From an uncultured Ignavibacteria bacterium (lineage in GTDB: Bacteria; Bacteroidota; Ignavibacteria; SZUA-365): a DNA stretch of 64,000 nt. Below, piece after piece: positions 37,730 to 43,172 of this stretch. Under the pieces are notes generated by a model, which worked only from the letters and a program-made list of their open reading frames with translations, made no database searches and was not told the origin of the DNA. Position numbers and translations under genes: made by a program. Position 1 is the first letter of the stretch; each line of letters starts with the position of its first letter. The stretch is from the NCBI GenBank assembly GCA_913061095.1, contig CAJXVM010000002.1, positions 124,001 through 188,000 on the forward strand, written 5' to 3'.

Positions 37730-38065
37730 GGGGTGCGTCTGACTGCGTGTTCGGCCACGGGCGCTCAGGACGACTGACGCCGCCGGACACCGGATGAAGA
37801 TGCCGTCTCGGTAATGGAGACAGTTGGATACATTGAAAGTTACGCTTTCTGCGGGAGGACTTCCAGTCAATCATTCAGGGGAAAGAACATGGACCGCCTC
37901 ACCGCGTATGGGCCATTGTAAAAAGTTTCATTTTCAGGCGAAAAAAAAGAGGTCAAAAAAAAATCCCTGAAATATTTTTTTCAATTCGTGCAACCTGACC
38001 CGGGGCTGACCGTACACGACAGTGTTGATAATCGCAAACACTCATATAGATCCCTGGAGGATATC
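37730..38065. other. Divergent intergenic region with A-tracts
   Basis: 336 bp between the surface-protein gene (leftward) and a small secreted-protein gene (rightward). Bases 37912-37990 are strongly AT-rich with A-tracts at 37941-37948 and 37955-37963 and a TTTCAGG/CCTGAAA inverted repeat (37932-37938, 37966-37972) ahead of TATTTTTTT. This looks like promoter DNA, perhaps for both genes. No RNA gene or further open frame is supported. Confidence 0.6.
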
Positions 38066-38521
38066 ATGAAAAAGTCCCTGATTGCACTGCTGGTTATGAT
38101 GGTCGTCGCATCGGCCTCCGTTTTCGCCCAGGTCAACAATCCCCCGCTCTCCGCCGAGCGGCAGAACGATATCAAGACAAACCTGCTCGCCGGTCTGCAG
38201 CATTCCTCGATGGAAGTCCAGGCAGACTACGTTCAGCTGGCGATCGATCTCAAGCGCGCCTATCCCGAGTATGACTTCAATTATGCGATCATCCCTCTGA
38301 TGGACAAGCTGAAGAACGAGTCGGATCCCGGTATCCGCATCCTCGCCGCACTTGCACTCTATGAATTCAAGGATTCCCGCATGAGCAAGTTCGCAATCGA
38401 GCAGACGGCGATTCACGACGGCTCCAAGCGCGTCGCCCGCCACTGCCAGACGCTGATCCGCAAGTGGGACAACCGCACCGAGCATCCCATCTATACCGCG
38501 CAGGTCGTCTATCCTTTCTGA
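38066..38521 (+). CDS. Small secreted HEAT-like protein
   Basis: 151 residues. GGAGG 6 bases before ATG 38066 fixes the start. Signal peptide MKKSLIALLVMMVVASASVFAQ, then a helical body: LSAERQNDIKTNLLAGLQ, MEVQADYVQLAIDLKRAY, AIIPLMDKLKN, IRILAALALYEF. The pattern of paired helices, the ILAALALYEFKDSR segment and the regular spacing resemble HEAT-type repeats. It is probably periplasmic; no enzyme motif is seen. Its strong ribosome-binding site, own promoter region and strong terminator suggest high expression as a single gene. Confidence 0.82.
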   Translation: MKKSLIALLVMMVVASASVFAQVNNPPLSAERQNDIKTNLLAGLQHSSMEVQADYVQLAIDLKRAYPEYDFNYAIIPLMDKLKNESDPGIRILAALALYEFKDSRMSKFAIEQTAIHDGSKRVARHCQTLIRKWDNRTEHPIYTAQVVYPF

Positions 38522-38562
38522 AACTTCTCGCTGATACGGTACGCATAGACTGATGACAGAAG

Positions 38563-38588
38563 AACCCCCGCTGCACGCGGGGGTTTTT
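38563..38588 (+). terminator. Strong terminator after the small secreted protein
   Basis: AACCCCCGC/GCGGGGGTT arms, a 5-base loop (TGCAC) and TTTTT. It may serve the convergent Nudix gene as well, although leftward only a broken T-run follows. Confidence 0.85.
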
Positions 38589-38590
38589 CT

Positions 38591-39211
38591 TTACGCCTGC
38601 AGCTGCAGTTCGTCTGTGTCGCCCGGCAGCATGCCGAGAAAGCGGAGAAAGTTGCGAATGATCAGCGCCGTCGCCCCCCAGATCGTCTCATTGTCATAGT
38701 AATAGAAGTACACGTTGCGCTCGACACCGTCGTGCTCGAATATCTGCGGCTCCGCGTTCCGATCATCCGCAAAGTAGGCAAGCGGGACGGAGAAGATGCG
38801 GGACACTTCGACGGGATTCGGCACAAGATCCGACAGAGAGCGAATCACGCCGACGACGGGTGAAATCACGAATCCCGTCGGTGTCCAGATATCGTCATGA
38901 CAGCCGAGCACATCAACATCCGACGGATGAAGTGCGACTTCCTCTTCCGCCTCACGCAGTGCCGTGGCGACGCAATCCTCTCCGGCATCCACGCTCCCGC
39001 CCGGGAAGGCAATCTGTCCGCGATGATGCGGCAGATCCGACGTGCGGCGCGTCAGAAGCAGCTGCCAAGCTCCGTCTTTCGCGAACAGACCGATCAGCAC
39101 TGCTGCGTGACGATACCCGCTGCGCTCCTGCACCTGCCGCTCGTGTGCATGGAGGCGGTCACGGATTGCCTCGCGGGACGGACAGGGATCATGCATATCC
39201 GCGGGCCTCAA
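38591..39211 (-). CDS. Nudix hydrolase, CoA-pyrophosphatase-like
   Basis: 206 residues. A complete Nudix box starts at GGSVDAGEDC and ends REAEEEV, just after HRGQIAFPGG, the hallmark of the NudL-type family that splits CoA into phosphopantetheine and 3',5'-ADP. An N-terminal LLLTRRTSDLPHH also fits that family. Acts in the cytoplasm. It overlaps nadC by 4 bases (ATGA) and is the last gene of the leftward run from the S41 protease. The CoA substrate is inferred from the motif only. Confidence 0.88.
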   Translation of the reverse strand: MRPADMHDPCPSREAIRDRLHAHERQVQERSGYRHAAVLIGLFAKDGAWQLLLTRRTSDLPHHRGQIAFPGGSVDAGEDCVATALREAEEEVALHPSDVDVLGCHDDIWTPTGFVISPVVGVIRSLSDLVPNPVEVSRIFSVPLAYFADDRNAEPQIFEHDGVERNVYFYYYDNETIWGATALIIRNFLRFLGMLPGDTDELQLQA

Positions 39212-40083
39212 TCCTCATCTGCATGTATATTGAAGGATATATCCAGGGCACGGACGGAATGAGTCAGTCCACCCACGGAAATCATATCAACGCCCGTCTC
39301 CGCGATGCCGCGCACGGTTTGTTCGCTGACATTGCCGGACGCTTCGATGCGCACATCCTCGCGCCTGCCGCGGATCAGTTTGACGGCAGTTGCCATTTCA
39401 TCGAGCGAGTAGTTATCGAGCATGATGATATCGACCGCTTCGCAGGACAGCGCCTCAATAACCTGATTGAGATCCGCCGTCTCCACCTCGATCTGGATTC
39501 CACGGTCCTTCGGGACGCGCGCGGCGACCAGATCGACTGCTGCTTTGAGCCCCCCGGCAGCGGCAATGTGGTTGTCCTTGATGAGCACCATGTCATCGAG
39601 TCCGAAACGGTGGTTGCTTCCCCGTCCGTGCTTGACGGCAAGTTTGTCGAACGTGCGCAGACCGGGTACGGTTTTCCGTGTATCGAGGATCCGGGCTTCC
39701 GTCCCCTCGATCAGCTTCATCAGTGATGCAGTAGCGGTGGCGATACCCGACATGCGCTGGAGGAAATTGAGCGCGGTGCGCTCGGCGGTCAGCATCGAGG
39801 CGATGCGGCCGCGTGCCACAGCAATGTTTGCACCGCGCAGCACGGGCATGCCATCGGTTACCGTGGCGTCGACAATCAGTTCGCGATCCACCAGCTGCAT
39901 GACCGTGGCGGCGACTTCCATTCCGCTGAGCACGCCGTTGGCCTTGGCCACAAACACTCCCTCACCTTCGAGATCCGGGGGAACGGTGCATTCAGTCGTA
40001 ATATCGCCGGTACCGATATCCTCGCGCAGCGCGGTCTCGATGCGCTGCAGCATGGTGCTGTCGTGAAGAAGACTCAGTCTCAT
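39208..40083 (-). CDS. nadC: Nicotinate-nucleotide pyrophosphorylase (carboxylating)
   Basis: 291 residues. It joins quinolinate with PRPP to make nicotinate mononucleotide in NAD synthesis. Typical motifs are REDIGTGDITT at the start, AERTALNFLQRMSGIAT, DTRKTVPGLR, KHGRGSNHRFGLDDMVLIKDNH and the EASGNVS and VDMISVGGLTHS stretches at the end. It overlaps the carbonic-anhydrase-like gene by 4 bases upstream and Nudix downstream. nadA and nadB are not in the window. Confidence 0.97.
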   Translation of the reverse strand: MRLSLLHDSTMLQRIETALREDIGTGDITTECTVPPDLEGEGVFVAKANGVLSGMEVAATVMQLVDRELIVDATVTDGMPVLRGANIAVARGRIASMLTAERTALNFLQRMSGIATATASLMKLIEGTEARILDTRKTVPGLRTFDKLAVKHGRGSNHRFGLDDMVLIKDNHIAAAGGLKAAVDLVAARVPKDRGIQIEVETADLNQVIEALSCEAVDIIMLDNYSLDEMATAVKLIRGRREDVRIEASGNVSEQTVRGIAETGVDMISVGGLTHSVRALDISFNIHADED

Positions 40084-40652
40084 ATGCGCCCCGATTTCCT
40101 GTATTCAAGATAGGAGTGGAAATCCAGTCCCCGCTCGAGCCCCTTGTTTTTCCGATATGATTCGACGTAGCGCAGGTACTGTCGGGCAGACTCCCGGACA
40201 TGCTCACGCTCTTCATCGCTGAGCTCACGGACGATGCGCGCGGGTACTCCGGCCACGAGTGTCCCGGGCGGCACCTCGAAGCCTTCGCGCACGACGGCGC
40301 CAGCGGCGACCAGCGATTCACTGTGTACGACCGCGTTGTCGAGCACGGTCGCACCCATGCCGATAAGACAGGCATCGTGCAGGGTGCAGGCGTGCAGCAC
40401 TGCGGCATGACCGACCGTGACATCCTCTCCGATGATCAGGGGATATTTCTGATAGGTCTCGTGCAGGGTGCAGTTGTCCTGGATATTCGTCCGCGCCCCG
40501 ATGCGCACCTGGTTGACATCCCCGCGGATCACGGTGCCGAACCACAGGTTGACATCCTCCGCGATATGCACGTCGCCGACGATAATCACATCCTCCGACA
40601 TGAACACGCTCGGATGAATAACGGGATACTTCCCCTCGTATGGATAAATCAT
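40080..40652 (-). CDS. Gamma carbonic anhydrase-family left-handed beta-helix protein
   Basis: 190 residues. Hexapeptide repeats of the left-handed beta helix run from about residue 15 to 150 (VIIVGDVHIAEDVNLWFG, VRIGARTNIQDNC, VTVGHAAVLHAC, CLIGMGATVLDNAVV). The three His ligands expected for a metal site are seen in LHETYQ, VGHAAVLHAC. Related proteins (YrdA, PaaY) are hydratases or thioesterases. Cytoplasmic. Its C-terminal tail is helical and charged. It overlaps nadC by 4 bases. Confidence 0.88.
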   Translation of the reverse strand: MIYPYEGKYPVIHPSVFMSEDVIIVGDVHIAEDVNLWFGTVIRGDVNQVRIGARTNIQDNCTLHETYQKYPLIIGEDVTVGHAAVLHACTLHDACLIGMGATVLDNAVVHSESLVAAGAVVREGFEVPPGTLVAGVPARIVRELSDEEREHVRESARQYLRYVESYRKNKGLERGLDFHSYLEYRKSGRI

Positions 40653-40667
40653 GATGCGTTTCCTTCT

Positions 40668-41558
40668 TCAATCCTTCACAATGGGCGGCGACCAGCCCGG
40701 CCGCTTCCACTTCACGAGTTCGATCCGCACACTGCCGATGAGCACGTGCATTTTCGCTGCGATCGGTACCGCGGCGCGGTCGTCGCTGAACCAGCCCTCG
40801 AAGCCGCCGGTCAGTCCGAATATACCGGTAAATCCGGTTTCTCCATCGAGTTTGACCGTGCGGACGTCATCGTCAATGGCGTCGATATCCTGCTCCTCGC
40901 GCTCGATCCCGAAATTGATGGTCGTCACTGCCTTGCTCCGGTACATGAGAACGGGAACTTCCTTTCGGCAGTGCGCATGTACATAGGCGCGCGCGTAGAA
41001 AAGAAGTGACAGACCGTCCTGCCAGTGCTTCCCTTCGAGGTCCAGCGTGTCGACGCGCGACCAGCCCGGTTTGTCCGTCACCGTCTCACCGATGACAACC
41101 GCGTCGCTTCCGTCTGGATAGAAATACGTGATGTGCTTGTACACGGTGTCGTCGCGCAGATACTCCGTGTTGCGAAAGGCCGTCGACTGCAGGGCAGGGC
41201 CGATCCGGCTTTTGAAGTGGGTGTTCAGCGTGACGAAGGGCACTCCCTTGAACGTCCGAATATGTGCTTCAGTGCGAACAGCCAGGCCGCGCGCGGTGCT
41301 GTCCACCGAAACGATTCTGCTGCTGATCGTCCCCAGACCGATGCCGAGATAGCTCACCTCGAAGAGCAGGCGCTCACCTTCGACGAACACGCCGTAATTC
41401 GGCCTGCAATCCGTCCGCTTTCCGCTGTGTGACTGCCCTGACAGCGGTTCCGGAGCGATGATCGCCGCGATAACGACCACAGCAAGACTCACTGCGGTGA
41501 AAAGAGAAACGTGGTTTCGCGGGAAACCACGTTTCGTATGCTTTCGGGATGTTTTCAC
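40668..41558 (-). CDS. DUF3108-family secreted protein
   Basis: 296 residues from GTG 41558, 12 bp after the S41 gene stop. The chain has an N-terminal hydrophobic segment (about residues 23-40) behind an odd basic leader, then a beta-rich DUF3108 domain: GERLLFEVSYLGIGLGT, FVTLNTHFKSRIG and DGLSLLFYAR, ending in VRIELVKWKRPGWSPP. DUF3108 proteins are periplasmic, of unknown function and often near lipid or envelope genes. A perfect inverted repeat with a U-rich tail lies inside the leader. If that is a terminator or control hairpin, translation may start at the in-frame GTG 41492, which gives a shorter, normal signal peptide. Confidence 0.78.
   Translation of the reverse strand: MKTSRKHTKRGFPRNHVSLFTAVSLAVVVIAAIIAPEPLSGQSHSGKRTDCRPNYGVFVEGERLLFEVSYLGIGLGTISSRIVSVDSTARGLAVRTEAHIRTFKGVPFVTLNTHFKSRIGPALQSTAFRNTEYLRDDTVYKHITYFYPDGSDAVVIGETVTDKPGWSRVDTLDLEGKHWQDGLSLLFYARAYVHAHCRKEVPVLMYRSKAVTTINFGIEREEQDIDAIDDDVRTVKLDGETGFTGIFGLTGGFEGWFSDDRAAVPIAAKMHVLIGSVRIELVKWKRPGWSPPIVKD
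41506..41535 (-). terminator. Perfect 13-bp inverted repeat inside the start of the DUF3108 gene
   Basis: GAAACGTGGTTTC, a 4-base loop and GAAACCACGTTTC; on the minus strand TCTTTTC follows. Each arm is itself an inverted repeat (GAAAC...GTTTC), so two smaller hairpins are possible. It lies between the S41 protease gene and the bulk of the DUF3108 gene and could stop or slow RNA polymerase. Confidence 0.5.
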
Positions 41559-41570
41559 GGCGTACCTGCC

Positions 41571-43172
41571 TTATCGGAGACCGGCGATCTTCCTGGCCTC
41601 GGGGAACAGCGACACGGCCTTCTCGTATTGCGGATCAACTTCGAGCATGGTGCGGAACTGTCCTTCATTGCCATACAGAGTGCGGGCGATCTGCGCCTTC
41701 ACCGCGGCCATCAGCCAGTCCTTGTCCTTTTCGTATCCTTCCTCATCAAATTCGACGCCCTTGGATTTCCCGAAATCGATGAGTTCCTTCATCATTGCAT
41801 CAGTCACGGAGAAGGCTTCGACGAACTGCCTGGCGTCGGCATCCGCGTATCGCTCACGCAGGTCGTTGCCCTTCTTATCGATGAACGCAGTGGTGTATTC
41901 GAAGATGTGGATACGCATCCTCCCGACGTATGTGCTCAGATTTTCGTAGCGCACGATGTAATCCGGGGTGATGCCGCCGCCGCCGTACACGGTGCGGCCC
42001 GCATCGGTCTTGTATTTCGGACGCGTGGTATCGGCCTCATGCTCGTGCATGATGTTGTCGCCGTCCTCTTCGTCACGGTCATACGCGCCGCGGTAGTAAT
42101 CCTCGTCGCTGCCGTCGTAGGGACGCTGAATCATGCGTCCGCTGGGGGTGTAATACCGCGCTGTTGTCAGGCGGAAGGCGGAACCGTCGGGCAGCTCGAA
42201 CTGCCGCTGCACCAGACCTTTGCCAAACGAAGTCTCGCCGACGATGAGACCGCGGTCGTGATCCTGCACCGCACCCGCGACAATCTCGCTGGCGGATGCA
42301 CTCCCGTTGCTCAGGAGAATGATCAGCGGCAGATCCTGCATTTCTCCGCTGCCGGTTGCGACGAAGTTCTCATCGAAATCCGACCGGCGTCCCTTCGTGT
42401 AGACGATCTTCTCACCACGCTCGAGAAATTCATTGGCCATGCGGAAGGACTGCTCGAGATAGCCGCCCGGATTGCTGCGCAGATCGAGCACGAGTTTTTT
42501 CATCCCCTCGGTCTTGAGATTGCGCAGACCGGTGAGAAATTCATCGTACGTCGTCGAGGAAAATCGGTTGATCGACATGTAGCCGATGCCGTCATCCATC
42601 ATGAAACTCGCGGTTACACTGTACAGCGGGATCTTGTCACGAATGATGGTGATGTCGATGGGATCTTCCAGACCGGAACGGACGATGCCGACAGTGACCT
42701 TGGTTCCCTTTTCACCGCGCAGCCGTTTCTGCACGTCGTCATTCGTGAATTCAACGGAGCTCTCTCCGTCGATTTCCACGATTTTGTCACCTGCGAGCAG
42801 ACCGACCTTCTCACTGGGGCCGCCGTAAATCACGTTTGCGACGGTAATCGTGTCATTGACGATGCGAAACTCGATGCCGATGCCCTCGAAGCTTCCCTTG
42901 AAGTCCTCCTGAACCTTTTCCAGCTGCTTGGGACTGATGTACACCGAATGCGGATCGAGCGATTTCAGCATGCCCTCGATCGCGGAAGCGACCAGGTCCG
43001 AAATCTTCACTTCGTCCACATAATACTTCTGCGTGTAGTTCAGGACATCCTTGAATTTGTTGAACTGCTGGTAAATGTTGTCTTCGGAAATCGCACGGAC
43101 TTGAGTGCCCATGAAAATCCCGAACACGAGCAGAACAAAAACGCTGGCCAGGGAAATCTTCTTCTTGAACAT
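41571..43172 (-). CDS. S41-family C-terminal processing protease (CtpA-like)
   Basis: 533 residues. One N-terminal membrane anchor (residues 6-25), then a PDZ domain (about 95-180, with GIGIEF, VIYGGPSEKVGLLAGDKIVEID) and a tail-specific protease domain holding the catalytic Ser in SNGSASASEI and Lys in FGKGLVQ. The tail from about 340 has an Asp/Glu/His-rich stretch and a helical end. It degrades or trims envelope proteins from their C-termini. Its place before DUF3108-CA-nadC-Nudix suggests a shared leftward transcript, interrupted by the hairpin at 41506-41535. Confidence 0.94.
   Translation of the reverse strand: MFKKKISLASVFVLLVFGIFMGTQVRAISEDNIYQQFNKFKDVLNYTQKYYVDEVKISDLVASAIEGMLKSLDPHSVYISPKQLEKVQEDFKGSFEGIGIEFRIVNDTITVANVIYGGPSEKVGLLAGDKIVEIDGESSVEFTNDDVQKRLRGEKGTKVTVGIVRSGLEDPIDITIIRDKIPLYSVTASFMMDDGIGYMSINRFSSTTYDEFLTGLRNLKTEGMKKLVLDLRSNPGGYLEQSFRMANEFLERGEKIVYTKGRRSDFDENFVATGSGEMQDLPLIILLSNGSASASEIVAGAVQDHDRGLIVGETSFGKGLVQRQFELPDGSAFRLTTARYYTPSGRMIQRPYDGSDEDYYRGAYDRDEEDGDNIMHEHEADTTRPKYKTDAGRTVYGGGGITPDYIVRYENLSTYVGRMRIHIFEYTTAFIDKKGNDLRERYADADARQFVEAFSVTDAMMKELIDFGKSKGVEFDEEGYEKDKDWLMAAVKAQIARTLYGNEGQFRTMLEVDPQYEKAVSLFPEARKIAGLR

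Follow-up and report, generated by a model that had tools for sequence, protein, structure and literature searches.

A perfect 13-bp inverted repeat followed by a U-rich tail lies inside the coding leader of a DUF3108 gene, behind the gene of an S41 peptidase; an earlier note on this DNA had reported it, and we found it as described, at positions 41535-41506. We consider it probable, at roughly two chances in three, that hairpin and U-tract are the intrinsic (Rho-independent) terminator of the S41 gene, attenuating the genes downstream and embedded in the signal-peptide codons of DUF3108. Judged by comparison of sequences, the hairpin itself is real, selected and old; from the same comparison we infer that RNA polymerase terminates at it, with some efficiency and some effect on DUF3108 levels.

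The hairpin and its setting

The window (the whole stretch of 64,000 nt that was analysed) belongs to a genome of 4.61 Mb in 42 contigs. The features considered below are the following:

41571..43172, minus strand: S41 (CtpA-like) peptidase gene (ORF; Pfam PF03572, E 8.9e-49, and PDZ)
41573-41571, minus strand: stop codon of the S41 gene
41559..41570, minus strand: gap of 12 nt separating the stop codon of S41 from the start of DUF3108 (from the sequence)
40668..41558, minus strand: DUF3108 gene, GTG start at 41558 (PF11306, E 1.4e-08)
41523..41535, minus strand: 5' arm of the hairpin, GAAACGTGGTTTC, encoding K-R-G-F
41519..41522, minus strand: loop of 4 nt, CCGC, free in sequence and constant in length in 11 of 11 aligned genomes
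41506..41518, minus strand: 3' arm of the hairpin, GAAACCACGTTTC, encoding N-H-V and the start of S
41497..41505, minus strand: U-rich tail, TCTTTTCAC, the codons with which the hydrophobic part of the signal peptide begins

Read on the minus strand, the element is GAAACGTGGTTTC-CCGC-GAAACCACGTTTC-TCTTTTCAC, with a computed value of -18.3 kcal/mol. The inverted repeat (41506-41518 with 41523-41535) falls in codons 8-18 of the DUF3108 ORF; its distance is 35 nt from the stop of S41 and, counted from the first base of the GTG start, 23 nt. The N-terminus of the protein, MKTSRKHTKRGFPRNHVSLFTAV..., resembles a signal peptide, and the hairpin encodes KRGFxxNHV, its basic n-region (both judged by eye). 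Among the perfect stems of the 64-kb window whose loops measure 3-8 nt it is the longest; in 20 copies of the window drawn from a first-order Markov model, no such stem exceeded 11 bp. The earlier note had proposed a genome search for the same 30-bp element; the exact 30-mer turned out to occur once in the window genome, as did a looser pattern of paired GAAACNNNGTTTC arms separated by 2-10 nt.

No curated covariance model of Rfam matched the hairpin when positions 41300-41800 were searched with E up to 1; the sole match, to an unrelated family at 41300-41345 (E 0.27), was under the gathering score and away from the hairpin. A sigma-70 promoter search of 40400-42200 found none, a result that is uninformative for Bacteroidota-type promoters. 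The gene order at 38591-43172 of the window is S41 peptidase, DUF3108, hexapeptide-repeat protein, nadC-like and NUDIX-like genes, the last two named by eye; this order, from S41 to the NUDIX-like gene, is conserved in six fetched relatives (genus and family). The window genome (G000) contains two more DUF3108-like stretches, at C5:72063-72851 (30% identity) and C17:55871-56188 (27%).

Conservation and covariation across the order

The DUF3108 protein was searched for in 81 genomes, of which 67 matched. The order is represented by 16 of them (G000-G015), and the S41-DUF3108 junction is present in 14 (G000-G012 and G014), G013 and G015 having weak partial DUF3108 matches alone. Eleven of these 14 (G000-G004, G006 and G008-G012) share both the hairpin and its position. 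Two more, G005 and G014, carry hairpins of unrelated sequence 33-35 nt past the S41 stop, with T at five of the next nine bases, and G007 has the junction without such a hairpin. A stricter, exact pattern located the element in eight of the 81 genomes, at a single place in each.

In the alignment of the 11 sequences (A1) the stem begins 32-35 nt past the S41 stop codon; the flanks and the loop sequence vary, while the loop is 4 nt long throughout. Pairing was seen in 97.9% of 143 cells (cells count sequences, not independent events), with double-sided changes in six of the 13 pairs, and on each of the five measures used the alignment outdid all 500 shuffles. Sliding the partner by one column left 49-52% pairing and at least halved the covariation score; at +1 five pairs with double changes could still be counted, although pairing was down to 49% and the covariation score to half.

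Run against the 81 genomes, a covariance model built on the element gave one strong site (47-62 bits) in each of the 11 source genomes. Among the matches listed, and antisense readings of the same sites aside, the best site elsewhere scored 32 bits, and no second site exceeded 33 bits. A mobile palindromic element of the REP or RPE type was rejected, since there is one exact copy in the window genome and, among the matches listed, one strong site in each of the 11 genomes. The single exact genome copy and the variable flanks would agree with a recent palindrome, mobile or arisen by chance, inserted in the leader, and the earlier note had named an insertion as one of two possibilities; this one is refuted by the comparison, which finds the hairpin at the same position in 11 of 14 genomes of the order and with compensatory changes, and we give it practically no credence.

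The pairs also tell which strand is under constraint. Among the inner 11 pairs, eight of 121 cells are non-Watson-Crick; on the coding strand every one of the eight is a G-U pair, with no cell left unpaired, so that the mRNA strand is what appears to be kept. This points to an mRNA hairpin, not a DNA palindrome, as the conserved structure. The antisense fold is weaker than the coding-strand fold in seven of the 11 genomes, stronger in three and equal in one. A DNA operator, that is, a palindromic protein-binding site on ACGTGG and CCACGT, would explain why the former is invariant in 11 of 11 genomes and the latter present in 10 of 11. The coding-strand G-U cells of the inner stem argue against it, as do the unrelated hairpins occupying the same place in G005 and G014 and the lack, among the matches listed for the 81 genomes, of a second site above 33 bits; we regard an operator as hardly credible.

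The earlier note was correct that each arm has the form GAAAC-NNN-GTTTC, yet each of the small hairpins so formed is worth just -1.0 kcal/mol. The switch that it proposed, between one long hairpin and two short ones, found no support: -18.3 kcal/mol stands against -1.0 for each short form, and the short-arm pairs do not covary (no double changes; 257 of 500 shuffles pair equally well).

Silent sites and double constraint

The codons of the hairpin are close to frozen: Arg is CGT in 11 of 11 genomes, Gly is GGT in 10 and Val is GTT in 10. The residues themselves are constant too (R, G and V in all 11 genomes, H in 10), as they would be if the peptide KRGFxxNHV were selected as a signal-peptide motif, with the inverted repeat a by-product. 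However, silent sites that are nearly frozen in the hairpin are free in the invariant C-terminal residues of S41 from the same genomes, where Gly uses three codons, Ala three to four and Leu three to four. Furthermore, of 1536 synonymous codings of KRGF..NHV, two keep the nine inner Watson-Crick pairs (16 if G-U is allowed), and the observed coding is one of the two. In G008 and G010 a single silent change faces a changed residue and restores the pair (GGC with AGC and GTC with AGA, respectively), and G005 and G014 hold a hairpin with a different peptide. Selection on the peptide as the whole explanation is thus very improbable. A further change, His to Arg in G012, is answered by a G-U pair.

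Residues conserved in orthologues with the hairpin bases free to change was the outcome that the earlier note had set against its own observation; this is not what we found, the bases being conserved more tightly than the residues require. With each arm serving both as code and as pairing partner of its counterpart, hardly any base can change freely.

For contrast we considered one control junction, at 38562-38586 of the window. It holds a two-way terminator-like hairpin between two convergent ORFs, 37988-38521 on the plus strand and the NUDIX-like 38591-39211 on the minus strand (named by eye). T-tailed hairpins are found at this junction in G001, G003, G004, G006 and G009, with widely different stems and loops, the congeners G006 and G009 sharing part of the stem; the sixth fetched relative, G008, does not show the upstream gene in the stretch taken from it. 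The deeper conservation of the stem in DUF3108, relative to this single contrast terminator, may be ascribed to the double constraint; recognition by a protein is an alternative.

Terminator-like features at the junction

Over the 11 genomes T makes up 0.60 of the nine bases past the stem, compared with 0.24 for the following 40 nt and 0.23 for the spacer that precedes the stem. At least five of these nine are T in nine of 11 genomes (in the window tail, five of nine); G010 has four and G011 two. As far as sequence can tell, the element shows three marks of an intrinsic terminator: a short-loop hairpin on the coding strand, a U-tract after the stem and a position past a stop codon.

We then considered the junction outside the order as well. 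Of 110 loci examined, 79 had S41 and DUF3108 in the needed order; eight of these (L060-L066 and L093) were dropped as repeats, as judged by the first 60 nt past the stop, which left 71 distinct junctions. A hairpin with a T-rich tail at -12 kcal/mol or better was present at 29 of the 71, namely at 12 of the 14 from the order and 17 of the other 57, and the same criterion was satisfied in none of 71 S41 interiors and none of 71 DUF3108 interiors. At a cut-off of -11 kcal/mol 31 junctions qualified, 12 in the order (where G007 and G010 fail) and 19 outside. All 12 qualifying order loci are open through the hairpin, with a start upstream. Among the 19 outside the order, seven have the DUF3108 frame closed by a stop codon within or beyond the hairpin, which is then intergenic; five more have no start ahead of the hairpin; and the last seven have both a start and an open frame, their stems being mostly irregular. 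Outside the order, 38 of 57 junctions were without a qualifying hairpin; by this survey terminator-like hairpins between S41 and DUF3108 occur in a minority of the class. One could speculate that the embedded hairpin descended from an intergenic one.

Four loci from class-level MAGs (L107, L111, L112 and L118) share a near-identical terminator-like hairpin, GCGGCTTCC..GAAGCCGT and then TTTTTATTT, located 26-29 nt past the S41 stop with no DUF3108 start ahead of it.

Similar stems occur elsewhere in these genomes. Eight weaker sites of the covariance model, taken from G000, G002, G003, G004, G006 and G008, are all strong stems, and six of the eight have at least five T in the next nine bases (for instance GAAACGCCGGTC-AAAG-GACCGGCGTTTC-T8 in G008); L141 (G000) and L147 (G004) have poor tails, with three and four T. 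As these sites were found by the model, their resemblance to it is partly selected for. Four strong stems of the window found without the model (7243-7213, 27539-27502, 38562-38586 and 62768-62744) lie 21-61 nt past the ends of ORFs; they are the credible ones picked by eye from a terminator scan that also flags many GC-rich coding hairpins.

Several observations do not sit easily with a terminator. The hairpin persists in G010 and G011 in spite of their poor tails, and so something beyond termination may keep it. G007 has no hairpin, and neither do the majority of outside-order junctions just mentioned qualify. Also, transcription ending inside an ORF ahead of its stop codon would make non-stop mRNAs, which is a cost.

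In G011 (L010, approximately 1362-1500) the mature-domain motif is 265 nt past the S41 stop; in the ten remaining genomes of the alignment this distance is 155-205 nt. Its stem is a perfect 13 bp while its T-rich tail is nearly lost (two of nine); perhaps termination has decayed there and the hairpin has been kept.

Predicted translation through the hairpin

All 13 order genomes with a hairpin have a start codon ahead of it and an open frame from there on. The earlier note had named a later DUF3108 start, at GTG 41492, as its other possibility. In G001, G003 and G014, though, there is no in-frame ATG, GTG or TTG from the hairpin to the mature-domain motif, so DUF3108 must start upstream of the hairpin in these genomes; a start at GTG 41492 in the window genome is, by this comparison, unlikely. 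Thus the putative terminator overlaps a frame predicted to be translated, as in attenuators of the pyrBI type.

Past the S41 stop, the first in-frame start follows at 9-12 nt in 12 of 13 genomes and at 19 nt in G003; it is a GTG or TTG in nine of 13, with several genomes having more than one candidate start. Measured in the common 13-bp register, the distance from start to stem is 23 nt in 10 of 11 genomes and 14 nt in G003, and the residues in between differ among genomes despite the constant 23 nt.

Such spacing could speak for a hairpin that controls translation and is no terminator: placed just past the ribosome initiating at a weak start, it would slow the first ribosome or aid start selection or signal-peptide export. 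The prevalence of GTG and TTG starts and the persistence of the hairpin in poor-tailed G010 and G011 are in line with this idea as well. However, it gives no role to the U-tract enrichment, nor to the terminator-like hairpins that lie between the genes at this junction in some other families, and the sole start of G003 is 14 nt from the stem. We judge a translation-control hairpin unlikely; at that estimate it is the main rival of the embedded terminator.

A possible mechanism

Under the embedded-terminator reading, RNA polymerase leaving the S41 gene would make the hairpin while the last S41 ribosome is at the stop codon, 32-35 nt upstream and too distant to block folding. A fraction of transcripts would end in the U-tract, and the remainder would continue into DUF3108 and the genes behind. 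On the read-through RNA, a ribosome starting 23 nt ahead of the stem would melt the hairpin and translate it as the basic n-region KRGFxxNHV, with the U-tract read as the first hydrophobic residues.

The part of PMC4824070 concerned with the E. coli terminator tR2 reports that it is repressed by the ribosome near a stop codon and fully efficient beyond 27-30 nt, and that a tR2 copy 30 bp into a coding region loses just ~10%. By analogy, the spacing seen here, 32-35 nt to the stop codon and 23 nt to the start codon, would fit a terminator that the S41 ribosome cannot reach and that still has time to act ahead of a newly arriving one.

A more speculative extension, which we find doubtful, is a self-gating operon joint. 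The first ribosome of DUF3108 would race RNA polymerase and so decide whether its own mRNA is finished; terminated RNAs, with an open start and no stop, would send their ribosomes to tmRNA rescue, and the n-region would thereby have been frozen over the depth of the order by the terminator that it encodes. Such rescue could, in addition, act back on the mRNA of S41. A tmRNA gene above the family cut-off is present in the window genome, and in 12 of 17 genomes searched.

Comparison with known systems

The element is like a two-gene intrinsic terminator or operon attenuator in its stable stem, short loop, U-tract and position 32-35 nt past the stop. It differs in lying inside the translated start of the next gene, for which it supplies signal-peptide codons, and in a sequence conserved order-wide. 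The pyrBI attenuator of E. coli, as presented in the relevant part of PMC4824070, is similar in that the terminator is in a translated frame and can be melted by a ribosome; that frame is a leader-peptide gene, whereas the present hairpin lies in the signal-peptide codons of the downstream protein itself, and we identified no sensor or pause site here. Internal hairpins are described also for brfA of B. subtilis and arfA of E. coli; in the sections of PMC6881298 and PMC8012679 that treat them, a Rho-independent terminator or hairpin inside the CDS yields non-stop mRNA. In both cases the gene encodes a rescue factor and the terminator lies close to its 3' end, while the present one is at the 5' end of DUF3108, the presumed 3' end of S41 transcripts. 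In the open-licence PMC literature we recognised no paper describing a hairpin at the S41-DUF3108 junction, which does not prove that none exists.

If the embedded terminator is real, one stretch of DNA would serve as both transcription terminator and protein targeting signal, maintained by compensatory change throughout the order. It would offer a natural site at which ribosome and RNA polymerase share a terminator in a start region, a situation for which engineered constructs were used in the experiments given in PMC4824070. Double coding could thus freeze two things that are both expected to drift, a terminator stem and the n-region of a signal peptide.
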